64,000 nt of DNA from Oscillospiraceae bacterium (GTDB lineage: Bacteria > Bacillota > Clostridia > Oscillospirales > Oscillospiraceae). The position numbers and the translations under genes are program-made. The notes under the pieces were generated by a model, which ran no database searches, was not told the origin of the DNA, and was given only the letters and a program-made list of their open reading frames with translations. The stretch is from assembly GCA_022846075.1 (NCBI GenBank), contig AP025582.1:2418001-2482000 (forward strand). The letters run 5' to 3'. This document shows positions 31,021 through 64,000 of the stretch, one piece after another (the stretch's first letter is position 1; each line of letters begins with the position of its first letter).

Positions 31021-31413
31021 GTGACGGAGTTCGAGAAGATCACCGCCTCCCCTGCCGTCCTGGGCGCTTTCCTGGGTTCCCTTCCCTGCCTGGAAGGTCC
31101 GTGGGACGACGCCTTTCACCGGGAGTTCTGCGACAAGTGCAAGGCGGAAAACTGCGACGCCTGCCCGCATGAGGCAGAGCGGAACAGCCCGACGTGGTGG
31201 CTGGGGCTGATCCACACGGGGACCGGGCCGGTGAGGACCGAGAGCCGGAACCCATACCTGCAGCAGGCCGCCAACCTCCGCCTGGAGGCCATGCACCAGC
31301 GGGACCGTTTCGGCCGTGACCTGCTGGCCCGGGAACTGGAGAGCGCGGCGGCCACCATTGAGGAACTGGCGGCAGAAATGGAGGCGCGGACCCATGGAGA
31401 ACCGGGCCTTTAA
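31021..31413 (+). CDS. Cys-rich phage protein
   Basis: A 130-residue protein from GTG 31021. CDKCKAENCDACPHE at about residues 37-51 forms a four-Cys metal-binding-like cluster; the C-terminus is a charged helix. It overlaps the methylase start by 20 nt. Function unknown. Confidence 0.6.
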   Translation: MTEFEKITASPAVLGAFLGSLPCLEGPWDDAFHREFCDKCKAENCDACPHEAERNSPTWWLGLIHTGTGPVRTESRNPYLQQAANLRLEAMHQRDRFGRDLLARELESAAATIEELAAEMEARTHGEPGL

Positions 31414-32053
31414 TATGGATTGCATGGAGGCCATGCGGTCCATGCCGGATCAATGTTTTGACCTGGCCGTGGTGGATCCGCCCTATGGGATCAGGATAAG
31501 CAACAATATGGGGCGGCGGAAGGGTGAGCGGCCGAGCGGATACAAAAAAGTGACCTGGGACGACACGCCACCGCCGCCGGAATACTTCACGGAACTGGTG
31601 CGGGTGTCAAAAAACCAGATCATTTTCGGGGCCAACCATTTTGTGAGCCTGATCCCGGCGGCGGATAGTTCGTGCTGGATATGCTGGGACAAGGGATTTT
31701 CCAGTGAAGTGTCCTTTGCCTCCTTTGAACTGGCCTGGACCAGTTTTGACAGACCGAGCAAGCGCGTGGCGCTATCCTCCGCCCAGGCCGGAAGGATACA
31801 CCCAACGCAAAAGCCGGTGGCGCTGTATGCCTGGATTTTTCAACACTATGCAAAGCAAGGGGACCGGATCCTGGACACACACCTGGGGAGCGGGTCAAGC
31901 CGGATCGCCGCGTGGGACGCCGGCCTGGACTTCACAGGGTACGAGATCGACCCGGAGTATTTCGAGGCCCAGGAAAAGCGGTTCCAGCAACACACCGCGC
32001 AAATGTCCCTGTTCGGCGGGGGGGGGGTATCTGATCACAATATACATTTTTAG
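31394..32053 (+). CDS. Site-specific DNA methyltransferase (N4/N6, DPPY)
   Basis: A 219-residue SAM-dependent methylase. Motif IV is VVDPPYGI at about residues 30-37. The SAM-binding motif I lies late in the chain (ILDTHLGSGSSRIAAWDAGLDFTGYEID), the beta-class order. HPTQKPVALYAWIF is also typical. The start is ATG 31394, giving MENRAFNMDCMEAM. A second G10 run sits nine codons before the stop. The target is unknown. Confidence 0.88.
   Translation: MENRAFNMDCMEAMRSMPDQCFDLAVVDPPYGIRISNNMGRRKGERPSGYKKVTWDDTPPPPEYFTELVRVSKNQIIFGANHFVSLIPAADSSCWICWDKGFSSEVSFASFELAWTSFDRPSKRVALSSAQAGRIHPTQKPVALYAWIFQHYAKQGDRILDTHLGSGSSRIAAWDAGLDFTGYEIDPEYFEAQEKRFQQHTAQMSLFGGGGVSDHNIHF
32018..32027 (+). repeat. 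G10 homopolymer near the 3' end of the DPPY methylase
   Basis: Ten G after GGC. As read, the protein ends GGGGVSDHNIHF. Loss of one G would extend the frame to a stop near 32084; gain of one would stop within two codons. The effect would be on the C-terminal tail only. Confidence 0.8.
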
Positions 32054-32063
32054 GAAAATGAAA

Positions 32064-32254
32064 GCCACCTGCGCCTGGTGCTGACAACACGGCGCAGGTG
32101 GCGATATAAGCGACGGCGAAACCGTCCCGGATACCTATATTATATCAGTTCTCCGGGCGGTTCGCAACGGAAAATTTTTGACGGGGCCACGGCCCCGTAA
32201 GCGCCGGTAAGAGGCATTAGTAAAGTGACCAGCACCCACAAAGGAGGGGGCACC
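32064..32254. other. Structured gap before the Rep gene (candidate replication origin or promoter)
   Basis: A gap of 200 bp without a gene. It holds a 12-bp stem (GCCACCTGCGCC at 32064-32075 with GGCGCAGGTGGC at 32091-32102), a small GACGG/CCGTC hairpin, a TATATTATAT stretch, and ACGGGGCC-AC-GGCCCCGT. No U-run follows the first stem. Hairpins just upstream of an HUH initiator suggest an origin; not proven. Confidence 0.5.
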
Positions 32255-57753: not shown

Positions 57754-58903
57754 CGAAATGAACGCGATCAAGAGCCTGCCGGACATTTCTTTCATCGACA
57801 ACAAGGACATTGACCAGGTGCGGCAGGAAATGGTGGCGGACTATGAAAGTTTTATTTCCGAGGCCACCGGCCAGACCGTGACCCTGGAGCGGTCCAGCGT
57901 CCACCGTATGGAACTTTACGCGGCGGCGGCGCAGATCTACCAGGCCATGCAGTACATTGACCGACAGGGAAAGCAAAGTATCCTGAAATACTCCTATTCG
58001 GATTTTCTGGACAACCTGGCCATTTTTAAGGGCGTGACCCGAAACCCGGCCACGCCGGCCACCACCACCCTGCGCTTTACCCTTTCGGCGGAGCGGGACA
58101 CGGCCACCGGGATCCCCCAGGGGACCCGCGTTTCCACGGCCGGCGCCATCTACTTCGCCACGGACGTGTACGCGGAGATCCCGGCGGGGTCCACCACCGT
58201 GGACGTGCCGGCCACCTGCACGGTGGCGGGCACGGACGGAAATGGGTTCGCCGCCGGAGAACTGGCCACCATTGTGGATCCGATCCCCTACGTGGCCAGC
58301 GTGACCAACACGACAGCAACCGAGGGCGGCGCGGAGATCGAGAGCGACGACGACCTGGCGGAGCGGGTTTTCCTGGCCCCTGGGGCCTATTCTACGGCCG
58401 GACCGGAGGACGGATACCTGTACCACGCCAAGGCGTACAGCGCCGCCATAGGCGACGTGGTGGCCACCAGCAACCAGGCGGCGGGGACCGTGGACATTGT
58501 TTTCATCATGGCCGACGGCAGCACCCCGGGGGAGGAAATGATCGAGGGCCTGGAGGGATACCTGCAGGGCAAGACGATCCGGCCCATGACGGACCTGGTA
58601 CGGGTGGCCGCGCCGCAAGAGGTCACGTACACCATCAACCTGACCTATTACATCAACCGGAGCGACAGCGCCAAAGCCGTGACCATCCAGGCGGCGGTGG
58701 CCCAGGCCGTGGCGGACTATCAGACCTGGCAAAGAGCCATCGGGCGGGATATTAACCCCTCCCAACTGGTCCGCATGGTCATGGACGCGGGCGCCAAGCG
58801 CGTGACCGTGACGGCCCCCACGTACACCGCCGTGGACGCCACCAAGGTGTCCGCCCTCCAGGGGGACGCCGTGATCAGTTACGGAGGGCTGGAGGATGAT
58901 TAA
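57746..58903 (+). CDS. Baseplate assembly protein J
   Basis: A 385-residue gpJ-like wedge protein: FLDNLAIFKGVTRNPATPATTTLRF, GTRVSTAGAIYFATD, AGELATIVDPIPYVASVTNTT and ESDDDLAERV are family blocks. GTG start; overlaps gpI by 8 nt. Confidence 0.9.
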   Translation: MPDEMNAIKSLPDISFIDNKDIDQVRQEMVADYESFISEATGQTVTLERSSVHRMELYAAAAQIYQAMQYIDRQGKQSILKYSYSDFLDNLAIFKGVTRNPATPATTTLRFTLSAERDTATGIPQGTRVSTAGAIYFATDVYAEIPAGSTTVDVPATCTVAGTDGNGFAAGELATIVDPIPYVASVTNTTATEGGAEIESDDDLAERVFLAPGAYSTAGPEDGYLYHAKAYSAAIGDVVATSNQAAGTVDIVFIMADGSTPGEEMIEGLEGYLQGKTIRPMTDLVRVAAPQEVTYTINLTYYINRSDSAKAVTIQAAVAQAVADYQTWQRAIGRDINPSQLVRMVMDAGAKRVTVTAPTYTAVDATKVSALQGDAVISYGGLEDD

Positions 58904-59549
58904 ACTTTCCGGGAGCCGGTTCACGGACATTATGCCGGACAACCTGGCCAGCCAGGTGGAAACCCAGGCTTTCGCCTACGCGGTGGGGCGGCAGATCGAA
59001 AAACTGTGCGCCTACTCCGACGCGGCAAGGACCTACGCGGCCATAGCGACCATGCCGGAGTGGCTGCTGGACTATATGGCCGTAGAACTTCGCACCCCGT
59101 CCTATGATGAAAACTATTCCCTGAAAACCAAACGGGCGCTGATCCAGGGGTCCCTCCTGTTTTACACGCAGATGGGGACACCGGCGGCGGTGAACCGGAT
59201 CATTGAAACCATCTTTGAAACCGGGTACATCGAGGAATGGTACGAGTATGACGGGGATCCCCACCACTTCCGCGCCTACGTAGGCGACGGCGGAGAGGTG
59301 GGGCCGGGGGAACTGGAGGAGTTCCGGCGGGTCCTGTCCTCCGTCAAGCGCCTTTCGTCGTGGCTGGATGATATTATCACGATCACAGCCATGGACCCGG
59401 ATATGGTGACGTTTACGGGGACCATGGGGAAGGGCTACACGTCCACACCCCTGCCGGAGGCGGCGGTGGACTACCACCTGGAGGACATGATCCGAGCGGG
59501 CGGAACATTCGGCACCATTACACAAACCGCCATCCCGGCGGCAATCTAA
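58896..59549 (+). CDS. Tail protein I
   Basis: A 217-residue P2 gpI-like baseplate protein linking the wedge to the fibres: MPDNLASQVETQAFAYAVGRQ, WLLDYMAVELRTPSYDENY and GTPAAVNRIIETIFETGYIEEWYEYD. Confidence 0.88.
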   Translation: MIKLSGSRFTDIMPDNLASQVETQAFAYAVGRQIEKLCAYSDAARTYAAIATMPEWLLDYMAVELRTPSYDENYSLKTKRALIQGSLLFYTQMGTPAAVNRIIETIFETGYIEEWYEYDGDPHHFRAYVGDGGEVGPGELEEFRRVLSSVKRLSSWLDDIITITAMDPDMVTFTGTMGKGYTSTPLPEAAVDYHLEDMIRAGGTFGTITQTAIPAAI

Positions 59550-59564
59550 ACAGGAGGAAAACCC

Positions 59565-62084
59565 ATGTTTTACGGATTTGTAATCACCGAGGCAGGAAAC
59601 AGCCTGCTGGCCAGCATGGTGGCGGGCCAAACCCTGACCATCACAAAGGCGGTCATGGGCGAGGGCACCGCAGACAACGCGGAGGCCGCCCGGAAGTTGA
59701 CAAACCTGATCACCCCGGGGCCGGAGGCCACCAGCACCGAGCCGACGGTGGACGGGAACAACGTCAACATGATCGTGGAGTATCGGTCCGACCTGAACGG
59801 CGGCCTGCAGGAAGGGTTCTGGATCGGTGAATTTGGCATTTTCGGCAAGGTAGGGAACGGCGCGGAAACCATGATCGGGTACGGTTCCCTGGGCGACGCC
59901 AAGCAGTACGTGAGCGCCTACGTGGCCGGGGCCGCCCCGGACGTGCGCCGGTATCCCGTTTCCATCACCGTCACCACCGGGATCCAGGTTGATGTGGCAT
60001 ACCCGGCGGAGGCGTGGATGACCGCCGAGGACGTGGCGGAATACTTCAACCAGACATTGAAACCCGACCTGGAGGAGAGCCTGCAGGACCTGATCGACGA
60101 CCACAACGAGGACCCGGACGCCCACGGCGGCGCCCTGGAGGGCAAGCAGGACCAGATCAAGGCGGAGGGGATCCTGAAAGGGACCAAGACCACCACCGAG
60201 GAGGGCGACACGTACAGCGTGGGCGCGGCCACGCCTGGCACCGACTACCAGGCCCCCACCAACGCCCTGACAGCGGCGGCGGCCATGACCACCCAGGACC
60301 TGATCCCCTTCTATGACGTGGCGACCGGCCAGCACAAGCGGACCACCCTGCAGGCGCTGAAAGAGGCCATCGGAGTGCAAAGCCCGGCCATCAACGTGAC
60401 CACCTGCGCGGGGGCCTCTGTGACCTGTTCGGACGGCGTGACCACCCTGGAGGGCACCGGGTCCACGGAGTTTGAACTGCCAAACGTGGGAAACTGGACC
60501 GTGACCGCCACCCTGGACGGGGAGAGCGTGTCCGAGGTGGTGGAGGTAAGCGGCGCCCTGCTGTATGAGGTGGACCTGATGATCACGAGCGGGATCGCCG
60601 TGACGGCACAGCCGGACAAGACCACCTATTTCATCGGGGAGGAGTTCGACCCGGAGGGCATGGTGGTAACGGCCACCTTTGCCGACGACACCACCGCAGA
60701 CGTGACCGAGGACTGCACCTTCTCCCCGGAAACCATGGCGGCGGGCACCCAATCCGTGACCATTACATACGTCCGGGCGGGCGTCACCAAGACCACCACG
60801 GTGGCGGTGGCGGTGCGGACCCTGGACCATATCGCCGTGACCACGCCGCCCAATAAGACGGCCTACAAGTACGGGGAAACCTTCCAGCCGGCGGGCATGG
60901 TGGTGACGGCCTACTACACCGACGAAACCAGCCGGACGGTGACGGGGTACACCTACTCCCCCACCGGCGCCCTGGACATGGACGACACCACGATCACCGT
61001 TTCCTATACGGAGGGGAGCGTGAGCAAGCAGACCACCCAGGCCATCACCGTGGCCAAGGTGCTGGAGAGTATCGAGATCACCACGCCCCCCAACAAAACC
61101 GCCTATTTCTCCGGGGAAACCTTCAACCCGGCGGGCATGGTGGTGACGGCCCACTACAACGACGGGAGCAGCGCGGCGGTGACGGGGTACACCTACTCCC
61201 CCACCGGCGCCCTGGCCACGGGCAACACCACGATCACCGTTTCCTATGCGGAGGGCGGCGTGACCAAGACGGACACCCAGGCCATCACCGTGACCGCGAT
61301 CTCCAACACCCTGAACAGCAATTCCTGGGCTACCATCAAGGCCGTTTCGGACGCCGGGCAGGGCGCCAACTACTGGGACGTAGGCGACACCAAGCAGATC
61401 ACGATCAACGGAAAGGTGGGGAATACGAACATTTCCAACCTGGCGATCAACGTGTTTATTATCGGGTTCAACCACAACGCCAGCCGGGAGGGTTCCAACC
61501 GGATCCACTTCAAGATCGGCAAAATCAGCAATACCCAGGTGGGCCTCTGTGATAGTGAATACGGAAATTATACTTCCACCTCCGGCGCGTTCACGATGAA
61601 CACCAGCAACACCAACAGCGGCGGGTGGGCCAACAGCCACATGAGAAAGACGGTGCTGGGGTCCGACGCAAGCCCCACAAGCCCCCGGGCCAACACCCTG
61701 CTGGCGGCCCTGCCGGCGGACCTCCGGGCCGTTATGAAACCGATCACCAAGTATTCGGACAACACCGGCGGCGGCAACAATACGGCCAGTTACGTGACCA
61801 GCACCACGGACTACCTGCCCCTGCTTTCGGAGTTCGAGTACCACGGCGCCCGGACCTATGCCAACAGCGCGGAGCAGAACTTCCAGCAGCAGTACGCCTA
61901 TTATCAGGCGGGCAACAGCAAGGTGCATTACAAGCACAACGCCACCGGCACGGCGGCCTATGCGTGGTGCCGGTCCGTCTATGCGGCGAGCGCGGACACT
62001 TTCTGCCTTGTCGGCACCAACGGCGACGCCTCCGCCAGCTACGCGGACCATTCCTGGGCCGTGGCCCCCGGCTTTGCGGCCTAA
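59565..62084 (+). CDS. DGR-diversified tail fibre/adhesin
   Basis: An 839-residue receptor-binding protein. Residues 1-150 are a phage tail-fibre N-terminal domain (FYGFVITEAGNSLLASMVAG, WIGEFGIFGKVGNG). Three Ig-like Big_3-type repeats follow at about 346-580. The C-terminal 255 residues resemble the DUF6273/C-type-lectin fold used as a DGR target (FKIGKISNTQVGLCDSEYGN, DYLPLLSEFEYHG, SWAVAPGF). The last 42 residues (796-837) are the variable repeat. AGGAGGAAAA precedes the ATG. It is the target of the retroelement downstream. Confidence 0.9.
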   Translation: MFYGFVITEAGNSLLASMVAGQTLTITKAVMGEGTADNAEAARKLTNLITPGPEATSTEPTVDGNNVNMIVEYRSDLNGGLQEGFWIGEFGIFGKVGNGAETMIGYGSLGDAKQYVSAYVAGAAPDVRRYPVSITVTTGIQVDVAYPAEAWMTAEDVAEYFNQTLKPDLEESLQDLIDDHNEDPDAHGGALEGKQDQIKAEGILKGTKTTTEEGDTYSVGAATPGTDYQAPTNALTAAAAMTTQDLIPFYDVATGQHKRTTLQALKEAIGVQSPAINVTTCAGASVTCSDGVTTLEGTGSTEFELPNVGNWTVTATLDGESVSEVVEVSGALLYEVDLMITSGIAVTAQPDKTTYFIGEEFDPEGMVVTATFADDTTADVTEDCTFSPETMAAGTQSVTITYVRAGVTKTTTVAVAVRTLDHIAVTTPPNKTAYKYGETFQPAGMVVTAYYTDETSRTVTGYTYSPTGALDMDDTTITVSYTEGSVSKQTTQAITVAKVLESIEITTPPNKTAYFSGETFNPAGMVVTAHYNDGSSAAVTGYTYSPTGALATGNTTITVSYAEGGVTKTDTQAITVTAISNTLNSNSWATIKAVSDAGQGANYWDVGDTKQITINGKVGNTNISNLAINVFIIGFNHNASREGSNRIHFKIGKISNTQVGLCDSEYGNYTSTSGAFTMNTSNTNSGGWANSHMRKTVLGSDASPTSPRANTLLAALPADLRAVMKPITKYSDNTGGGNNTASYVTSTTDYLPLLSEFEYHGARTYANSAEQNFQQQYAYYQAGNSKVHYKHNATGTAAYAWCRSVYAASADTFCLVGTNGDASASYADHSWAVAPGFAA
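60590..61307 (+). repeat. Three tandem Ig-like repeat units in the fibre gene
   Basis: Units of about 240 bp. Units two and three (from about 60,831 and 61,071) are alike at DNA level, sharing GGGGAAACCTTC, CCGGCGGGCATGGTGGTGAC and GGGTACACCTACTCCCCCAC. Copy number could change by recombination, altering fibre length. Confidence 0.8.
61950..62075 (+). repeat. DGR variable repeat (VR)
   Basis: 126 bp at the 3' end of the fibre gene, ending nine bases before the end of its stop codon. It aligns without gaps to the TR (offset 737). All 18 mismatches are at TR adenines (9 to G, 5 to C, 4 to T), changing 14 codons. The 3' part, CCTGGGCCGTGGCCCCCGG, is invariant and GC-rich, fitting the initiation-of-mutagenic-homing site. 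Confidence 0.95.
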
Positions 62085-62106
62085 TCCGGCGGAGCAATCG
62101 GGGAAA

Positions 62107-62132
62107 ATCCCGCCCACGGAAGTGGGCGGGAT
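62107..62132 (+). promoter_or_regulatory. GGAA-tetraloop hairpin after VR
   Basis: Perfect 11-bp stem ATCCCGCCCAC/GTGGGCGGGAT with loop GGAA, 31 bp after VR. CGGCGG (62087-62092) and CCGCCG (62134-62139) can form an outer stem. No U-run follows, so it is not a terminator. GGAA fits the GRNA loop of the DNA hairpin needed for homing in the Bordetella phage DGR. Confidence 0.85.
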
Positions 62133-62165
62133 CCCGCCGAACACACACCGAGAGGAGGGGCGGCC

Positions 62166-62624
62166 ATGTCTGTCCTGAAAAGCAAGCGATCCACCAGCAA
62201 GGCGGAGTATGTGAACCTGGCCAATGAGATTTACACGGAAACCGTGGCATTTTTGACCCGGCTTTCCGCCAGGTACGCCCGCCTGCTGGCGGAGCCGGTG
62301 GCGGCGCTGGCCGGGGAGGTGATCGACCAGACGGAAAAGGCGAACAGCATTTTTCCAAAGGGAGAGCCGAACCTGGGCCTGCGGAAAGGCCACCTGCTGG
62401 AGGCCAGGGCCGCGCTTATGGCCCTGGACGTGCGCCTGGGACACTGTTACACCATCCTGGCGCTGAACCCGCAGGGGTGCTTTACCAAGCCGGACGGGAA
62501 AAGTGTACCGCCGGCGGAGGCCACCAAGAAACTGGATGATATGTCGCAGAGCCTGGGAGAGAAGATCGACCGGGAAAACGAACTGATCCGGGCCGTTCTG
62601 GAGAGCGACCGGAAAAGAAAATAA
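62166..62624 (+). CDS. avd: Accessory variability determinant (Avd-like)
   Basis: A 152-residue, mainly helical protein predicted to be a four-helix bundle, basic, between VR and TR, where avd lies in DGRs. Segments FLTRLSARYARLLAEPVAALAGEV, GHLLEARAALMALDVRLGHCY and LDDMSQSLGEKIDRENELIRAV form the helices. In known DGRs Avd binds the reverse transcriptase and TR RNA. GAGGAGGGG precedes the ATG. Identification rests on position, size and helical pattern. Confidence 0.8.
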   Translation: MSVLKSKRSTSKAEYVNLANEIYTETVAFLTRLSARYARLLAEPVAALAGEVIDQTEKANSIFPKGEPNLGLRKGHLLEARAALMALDVRLGHCYTILALNPQGCFTKPDGKSVPPAEATKKLDDMSQSLGEKIDRENELIRAVLESDRKRK

Positions 62625-62686
62625 ATCACTGGCCATTTGGGTGTATCTCTGAAAACGTGCCGAGTGGCAGGGCGGCGGGTGCTTTG

Positions 62687-62812
62687 ACGGCGGCCAATGC
62701 GTGGTGCCGGTCCGTCAATGCGACGAACACGAACAATTTCTGCCTTGTCAACACCAACGGCGACGCCAACAACAACAACGCGAACAATTCCTGGGCCGTG
62801 GCCCCCGGATTT
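62687..62812 (+). ncRNA. DGR template repeat (TR)
   Basis: 126-bp template of the VR, 62 bp after avd. It is A-rich at variable codons (runs of AAC/AAT), giving 32 adenines. It is transcribed as part of the non-coding DGR RNA and copied with adenine-specific errors. An open frame through it is not a gene. Confidence 0.95.
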
Positions 62813-63037
62813 CACAACCCCGCGAGGGGGACGGGTCAAATGCAGTAGGAAACGAACCGGACCCTTTGTGAAAGGAGAGATACTTCCCGGGCGATAAGCC
62901 CGAAACCGCCCTTTGTGGCCCCTTCACGGACGCTGCTTGCATGGCGGGGTATTGTGCTACCCCCGTTTCATGTGAAGGGTCTACGCGGTTTAGCCGCACA
63001 CCTACACCACAACCGCACGGAGGCGCGAATACTTATT
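62813..63037 (+). ncRNA. Structured spacer between TR and RT
   Basis: Gene-free 225 bp. Predicted stems: CGGGC/GCCCG (62888-62902), CCCTTCAC (62920-62927) with GTGAAGGG (62972-62979) enclosing GGGGTA/TACCCC (62946-62963), and GCGG/CCGC (62985-62997). In known DGRs this spacer is part of the RNA needed to prime cDNA synthesis. Confidence 0.65.
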
Positions 63038-64000
63038 ATGACCAGCGAGGAGCGCCGGGAGGCGCGATACCATAGACGACAGGCCAGCCGGGAGGCGCGG
63101 CGGAGGAAACGCAGCGAGGACCTGGGCGGGATCGCCCAGGCGTTCAGTTTCCGGAAAATGTTCAAATGGGGAAAGAAGTGCTGCAACAATGTACGGTGGA
63201 AACAATCCACGCAGAACTTTGAACGGCACCTGTTTTCCGGTACGGCCCGCCGGCGGCGGGAAGTTCTATCCGGGAAGTGGCGGCCAAAGCCGGGCGCCCA
63301 CTTCCTTCTCCGGGAGCGGGGCAAGATCCGGCCCATAGACGCCCCGCACATCAACGACCGGCAGATCCACAAAACCCACACAAAGGAGGTCCTGGAGCCG
63401 CTATACACGCCGGGCATGATCCGGCGGAACGGCGCCAGCCAGAAGGGAAAGGGCCTGTCCTTCCACCATGAGGAACTGAAACGGATCCTGCGGGAGCATT
63501 TCAGGAAACATGGCCGGGAGGGTTACGTGGTCCTTATGGACCTAAAGCAGTTCTTCCCCTCCGCGCCCCATGCGGCAATCTATGAGCGCCACCGGCGCTT
63601 GATCCTGGACCCGGAGATCCGGGCGGTGGCGGACACGGTGGTGGCCGCCGTGCCGGGCGGCGTGGGTATGCCCCTGGGCGTGGAGCCGTCGCAGATGGAA
63701 ATGGTGTCCCTGCCGTCCGACGTGGACAACTGGATCGCCTGCCAACTGCGGGCGGAAGGGCCGGCCCACTATATGGACGACTACCACATGATCGCGGAAA
63801 CCAAGGAGCAGGCGGAGGCGTTCCGGGACGCCGCAACCGAGCGCATGGAGGCCATGGGGCTGACCGTGAGCCGGAGCAAAACCAGGATCGTGCCACTGTC
63901 CAAACCCTTCCGGTTCTGCAAGGTCAAATTCTACCTGACGCCCACCGGGAGGGTGATCACCCACGGGAACCGGGACGGGATGAAACGGGCGCGGCGGAAA
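63038..64000 (+). CDS. DGR reverse transcriptase (cut by window end)
   Basis: 321 residues are visible with no stop. Conserved RT motifs are VVLMDLKQFF (catalytic D168), LGVEPSQ at 213-219, which is the DGR-type [I/V/L]GxxxSQ motif instead of QGxxxSP, and the YMDD box at 245-248. The motif 2-type region is KIRPIDAPHINDRQIHK. A basic N-terminus (RRQASREARRRKR) precedes it. ATG 63038 has GGAGG 14 nt upstream, a long spacing. The family copies TR RNA with errors at A. The thumb continues beyond 64,000. Confidence 0.95.
   Translation, partial: MTSEERREARYHRRQASREARRRKRSEDLGGIAQAFSFRKMFKWGKKCCNNVRWKQSTQNFERHLFSGTARRRREVLSGKWRPKPGAHFLLRERGKIRPIDAPHINDRQIHKTHTKEVLEPLYTPGMIRRNGASQKGKGLSFHHEELKRILREHFRKHGREGYVVLMDLKQFFPSAPHAAIYERHRRLILDPEIRAVADTVVAAVPGGVGMPLGVEPSQMEMVSLPSDVDNWIACQLRAEGPAHYMDDYHMIAETKEQAEAFRDAATERMEAMGLTVSRSKTRIVPLSKPFRFCKVKFYLTPTGRVITHGNRDGMKRARRK

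Follow-up and report, generated by a model that had tools for sequence, protein, structure and literature searches.

The diversity-generating retroelement (DGR) of Bordetella phage BPP-1 (mtd-avd-TR-brt) copies a template repeat (TR) adenine-specifically into a variable repeat (VR), and related elements have been published from gut phages such as the Faecalibacterium phages Taranis (MG711467), Roos (PP479939) and Pioen (PP479940), the latter two being reported to have a DUF6273 target and VR variation in reads (PMC11792537). DUF6273 is likewise already published as a C-type-lectin-like, DGR-mutated domain (PMC10743442, PMC11792537). The stretch analysed here (the window; 64,000 nt, positions 2,418,001 to 2,482,000 of contig AP025582.1, features beyond 64000 being given in window numbering) belongs to the 3.23-Mb, single-contig genome of an Oscillospiraceae bacterium and carries, in a contractile-tail prophage, what is almost certainly a complete DGR. 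Directly shown are its anatomy, an intact reverse transcriptase (RT), VR–TR differences confined to adenines, VR divergence among near-identical elements, a hairpin, an RNA family and predicted folds. A preliminary description of this DNA had proposed a complete DGR aimed at a contractile-tail fibre, and every part it named is present, on the forward strand and where it was placed. Its assignment to a known class also stands; the element is a further case of the published kind and groups with Taranis, Roos and Pioen. Its features are as follows.

59565–62084, forward strand: tail-fibre target open reading frame (ORF), 839 aa, with a tail-fibre N-terminus, three Big_3 Ig-like repeats and a C-terminal C-type-lectin-like (DUF6273-type) domain
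61950–62075, forward strand: VR, 126 bp, the last codons of the target gene, with 18 mismatches to TR
62051–62075, forward strand: VR 3' end resembling an initiation of mutagenic homing (IMH) sequence, TTCCTGGGCCGTGGCCCCCGGCTTT, free of TR adenines but for one site; its role is proposed by analogy with BPP-1
62107–62132, forward strand: DNA hairpin/cruciform site, 11-bp stem with a GGAA loop (GRNA type)
62166–62624, forward strand: accessory ORF, 152 aa, predicted Avd-type four-helix bundle, phrog_30516 (unknown function)
62687–62812, forward strand: TR, 126 bp, with 13 AAY codons in its mutable part
62813–63037, forward strand: spacer between TR and RT
62831–63046, forward strand: RT-2 RNA (Rfam RF03077), full-length match, 152.7 bits
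63038–64000 and on to 64201 past the window end, forward strand: DGR RT, RVT_1 at 1e-13, 387 aa
57746–58903 and 58896–59549, forward strand, upstream of the fibre gene: baseplate J, then tail protein I

BPP-1 shares with this element the gene order, the adenine-specific TR-to-VR transfer, a GRNA hairpin after VR, a structured spacer, the YMDD and GxxxSQ motifs of the RT and the Avd fold, but its RT is only 25% identical, its accessory protein is alike in fold only, and its spacer is Phage_DGR rather than RT-2. Taranis, Roos and Pioen have the same order of target, accessory, TR and RT, with RTs about 54% and accessory proteins about 68% identical to those of the window and with the RT-2 RNA present as well; they are different phages and contain an extra ORF between target and accessory, whereas the accessory ORF of the window directly follows the target gene with no ORF between. 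The closest phage records found are Dulem virus 34 (PP511788) and the gut phage scaffold MT835543, which cover about 64% of the phage region at about 76% DNA identity and contain the same DGR with an A-specific VR and an Ig-like target; PP511788 lists both the RT and the accessory as hypothetical proteins, while MT835543 is unannotated. Tentaclins (PMC10743442) also combine a DGR-hypermutated DUF6273/C-lec domain with Ig-like domains. Their C-lec domain is N-terminal, whereas the window fibre is composed of a tail-fibre domain, Ig repeats and then a C-terminal C-lec domain.

The 126-nt alignment of VR and TR is gap-free, and all 18 mismatches fall on TR adenines (18/18; hypergeometric P = 1.7e-13, TR having 32 A in 126 bases), where VR contains nine G, five C and four T, while the other 94 TR positions show 0 differences. 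One site in the IMH-like end is A in TR and C in VR and is constant in 6/6 elements compared; following BPP-1, it is better read as an IMH*/IMH difference than as a mutation, in which case 17/18 of the VR–TR differences would be mutagenic. Substitution of adenines in the 13 AAY codons of the mutable part of TR never yields a stop codon, and the upper bound on TR-encoded variants is about 2e18. No second VR was found, either in a whole-genome search with the TR region, which matched only this TR and this VR, or in an adenine-aware scan covering the window plus 35 kb of sequence beyond it. Among 127 related viral loci, a TR/VR pair was detected in 100, with 1639/1681 mismatches at A, by a detector which favours A-specific pairs and which recovered the BPP-1 TR/VR as positive control.

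Two elements have an RT 99% identical to that of the window, one from Flavonifractor sp. An100 (L015) and the other from an Oscillospiraceae metagenome-assembled genome (L016). In pairwise comparison of the three, 21–23 of the 126 VR sites differ, 20–22 of these at TR adenines, while only 2–3 of 126 differ in TR and 3–12 of 1000 in the flanks (500 bp on each side of VR), the VR-versus-flank divergence giving Fisher p values of 3.7e-14 to 3e-18. The VRs of relatives thus do vary at TR-adenine positions, the absence of which would have spoken against the preliminary description, and the DGR has been used in nature within the immediate lineage. L016 is a recombinant, as its private sites upstream of and just after VR agree with L015, while those from the spacer through much of the RT agree with the window. 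Its VR (within L016 694–1556) departs from its own TR at three non-A positions and carries at each of them the base of the L015 TR, which indicates that this VR was written from an L015-type TR and that the cassette changed later. Non-A mismatches in such DGRs can therefore be a mark of TR replacement rather than of infidelity. The three near-identical copies amount to a natural experiment on how a prophage of gut Oscillospiraceae hypermutates its tail fibre. In the middle of the fibre gene, the Ig-repeat region (window 60050–61300) is strongly diverged from An100, whereas the first 480 bp of the gene and its C-terminus are nearly identical, which suggests domain swapping or recombination in the repeats.

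The spacer matches the Rfam family RF03077, 'RT-2', over positions 1–222 with 152.7 bits against a gathering cut-off of 40, so that the 'structured spacer' of the preliminary description is borne out in a stronger sense than was claimed, namely by a full-length covariance-model match; its single-sequence fold energy is unremarkable (z -1.1). A search of 394 order-level genomes with RF03077 gave 12 matches above the cut-off, all of which (12/12) have an adenine-specific DGR TR just upstream, ending 0–20 nt before RT-2 or overlapping it by at most 6 nt, and themselves end at the RT start. RT-2 also precedes the RT in 10 related loci and in 40/40 viral loci, 20 with the window-type accessory and 20 with another accessory type. 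These viral loci were picked by accessory protein and do not represent a random draw; the 12 genome matches, several of them related to one another, were picked by the RNA and test the link more strongly. RT-2 is also present in Roseburia phage Shimadzu, for which Avd and RT are annotated, and the BPP-1 spacer at the equivalent place is Rfam RF03022, 'Phage_DGR'. Five sub-threshold matches (25–39 bits) all precede YMDD RTs, one of them with a TR/VR. The location of RT-2 in DGRs is thus close to shown.

The name RT-2 records in Rfam only an association with RTs; here the family is linked to DGRs and corresponds to Phage_DGR, and it is very probably the DGR spacer, or template-RNA module, of a clostridial clade. 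By analogy with BPP-1, for which priming and RT/accessory binding are summarised in PMC12875486, the spacer may prime cDNA synthesis and bind the RT and accessory. A wider proposal has about even chances: across a large clade of clostridial gut-phage DGRs, RT-2 would form a conserved 3' part of the template RNA, bound by RT and accessory and serving to prime cDNA synthesis, and would be partnered by a divergent Avd subfamily missed by current models. A single Rfam model could find clostridial-phage DGRs and delimit their template RNA, and RT-2 together with the Avd-fold accessory would offer a second, BPP-1-independent system for the roles of spacer RNA, RT and accessory in adenine-mutagenised cDNA synthesis. 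A literature text search for RF03077 returned unrelated papers only, and priority for the link between RT-2 and DGRs is uncertain. RT-2 reportedly goes back to Weinberg et al. 2017. Among the loci with a sub-threshold RT-2 match, L038 (reverse strand) has a TR (1427–1497) matching two VR-like stretches (367–437 and 909–960), both A-specific, and is possibly a DGR with two targets. A related DGR, that of Acutalibacter sp. 1XD8-36, has a type II hammerhead ribozyme match (40.9 bits; L018 10564–10652, reverse strand) on its downstream side.

The RT continues uninterrupted past the window end to its full 387 aa (complete in L002 3039–4202), and recovery of the sequence beyond 64,000 thus settles in favour of an intact enzyme the truncation or interruption that the preliminary description had considered. 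It contains the motifs LGVEPSQ (LGxxxSQ type) and YMDD, and its best match in the Protein Data Bank (PDB) is 8ub7_A, a DGR RT. Retron, group II intron and defence-RT assignments are rejected, as their best scores are far below curated cut-offs (67.5 bits against 300 for the group II intron RT model TIGR04416 of NCBIfam), and the PADLOC matches are generic RT-domain matches which the BPP-1 DGR RT gives more strongly.

The accessory protein matches no Pfam, NCBIfam or PADLOC model, including the curated Avd models NF033474 and PF22296, nor did profile searching of PDB sequences bring up a relative. Its profile does align with one built from proteins that occupy the place of Avd in other DGRs (hhalign 99.4%, E 1.6e-21), a set in which L043 meets NF033474 at 4e-7, below the model's cut-off, and L039 is annotated as Avd. 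The predicted structure is a four-helix bundle with a predicted local distance difference test (pLDDT) score of 91, for which the best solved matches are the IVP/S23-type proteins 2gsc (Z 16.6) and 2rld (Z 14.7), while BPP-1 Avd (4dwl, 8ub8) reaches Z 13.5–13.8 with a root-mean-square deviation (rmsd) of 1.8–2.3 over 106–110 residues; unrelated bundles reach Z 12.3, so the fold match to Avd is by itself moderate evidence. Taken together, predicted fold, position and profile make the accessory a likely relative of Avd, for which fold alone would be insufficient. The 'Avd-like' gene of the preliminary description is accordingly upheld by profile–profile comparison and predicted fold, though not by the sequence models of Pfam and NCBIfam. 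As in BPP-1, the protein may form an oligomer binding the RT and TR-RNA. Avd homologues have been reported only in Mushu and Lagaffe and were undetected in Taranis (PMC5883640). Taranis carries a protein 68% identical to the window accessory, and the accessory missing from Taranis-type DGRs now has an Avd-fold candidate. Two further loci (L033 490–1338 and L034 538–1341) encode DGR accessories of 267–282 aa which look like tandem Avd-type domains.

Phage DGRs are known to have GC-rich stems of 7–10 bp with GRNA loops 4–34 bp past VR (Guo et al., PMC3240598). The window hairpin, ATCCCGCCCAC(GGAA)GTGGGCGGGAT, begins 32 nt past the VR end and has a DNA fold z of -3.5. A GRNA hairpin within 90 nt of VR is found in 31/88 distinct post-VR sequences against 9/1760 random windows, and the stems of relatives have changed in sequence yet still pair.

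Residues 1–220 of the target fibre match phrog_7037 tail fiber (6e-40), and Pfam Big_3 matches three stretches (4.6e-21). The C-terminal domain (61299–62081, 261 aa) is predicted by AlphaFold2 with pLDDT 97.8, and among solved structures it is matched best by the N-terminal domain of 9qa6 (residues 32–282; Z 15.6, rmsd 2.5 over 179 residues), termed C-type lectin-like by its authors, while other C-type lectins score Z 4–7. Mtd is absent from the fold-comparison matches, which does not argue against kinship, and no relative of the lectin-like domain emerged when PDB sequences were searched by profile. Among 60 homologues, mean entropy is 2.88 bits at A-bearing VR codons, 1.65 in the domain outside VR and 1.24 at other VR residues. 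The predicted fold thus points to a C-type-lectin-like DGR target at the fibre tip, with VR at its C-terminal end. By analogy with BPP-1 and from this target fold, the element may change host binding and allow receptor switching.

The most likely mode of action is modelled on BPP-1: one transcript would span the accessory gene, TR and the RT-2 spacer RNA, and the RT and Avd-type protein would bind it. A cDNA would be copied from TR with random bases opposite adenines. With the IMH-like sequence and the GRNA-loop hairpin as guides, this cDNA would take the place of VR at the 3' end of the fibre gene. The lectin-like tip would thereby gain a new binding surface, with the scaffold and TR unchanged, and virions with altered binding would result. 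These retrohoming steps and the dependence of mutagenesis on the RT are transferred from the Bordetella phage.

The adenine bias could in principle reflect chance or the ordinary divergence of two lectin-domain repeat copies, as repeated domains are able to diverge under selection and the detector run on relatives prefers A-specific pairs; but the changes in the window are one-way, 0 mismatches falling at TR C, G or T, the 100 related loci show the same bias, and so do six TR/VR pairs aligned without the A-favouring detector. Together with the 18/18 count and its P value, this six-pair alignment refutes such an origin, the probability of which is negligible. RT-2 might instead be an independent RT-associated RNA, for example retron-like or regulatory, which merely lies beside DGRs, as its Rfam label says no more than 'RT-2' and four of the five sub-threshold matches beside RTs have no TR/VR seen within 1.5 kb. 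The position of all 12 above-cut-off matches between a DGR TR and the RT start, its presence in every locus fetched by accessory protein and the occurrence of Phage_DGR at the same place in BPP-1 make this very improbable. It is less improbable, though still unlikely, that the VR-rewritten protein attaches to mucus or another environmental surface rather than choosing a bacterial host. Ig-like repeats and C-type-lectin-like folds are known from mucus-binding and decoration proteins, and a mucus or surface role has been proposed for Hoc-like DGR targets (PMC5883640), whereas the protein here begins with a tail-fibre domain and is encoded after baseplate J and tail protein I, where the receptor-binding fibre is usually found, a position which is compatible with a double role on host and surface.

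Several points weigh against a working fibre-targeting DGR in the window. In 57/88 relatives no strict 7-bp GRNA hairpin lies within 90 nt of VR, and profile comparison connects BPP-1 Avd with neither accessory set. The DUF6273 (PF19789) score of the fibre, 20.8 bits, is under the Pfam gathering cut-off of 23.5, although a homologous small target in L188 passes it with 32.2 bits. The data are moreover the sequence of one genome, from which the window copy is only presumably active at present. The element might accordingly be a fossil, recently active but dead in the window, with VR differences among relatives inherited, and some intact-looking Faecalibacterium phage DGRs show no variation in culture reads (PMC11792537). 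This is improbable, as the RT, accessory, TR, RNA, IMH-like end and hairpin are all intact and elements about 98% alike elsewhere differ at 17–18% of VR sites, which implies that diversification was recent in the lineage.

The tail of the prophage is contractile, as shown by its gene set, which comprises baseplate J, tail protein I, a tail tube and a tail sheath (phrog_23) along with a gpA-type terminase and a lambda-type portal. Of the 'P2/Mu-like' label given earlier, the P2-like tail is retained, while the head is of the gpA-terminase/lambda-portal type and the proteins tested included no Mu transposase. A transposase (phrog_4646, 405 bits; L002 9323–10357, window numbering about 69322–70356) lies a few kb past the lysis genes, near the presumed right prophage end. 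In the prophage of a congener genome (G800), a second, remote DGR target, a 221-aa DUF6273 protein (L188 1494–2156), is located about 28.5 kb upstream, directly after a DNA methylase gene, and its VR2 differs from TR (L175 2895–3024) at 12 sites, 11 of them at A. At about 31316–32080 the window shares the methylase/terminator neighbourhood of G800 but lacks the second target gene.

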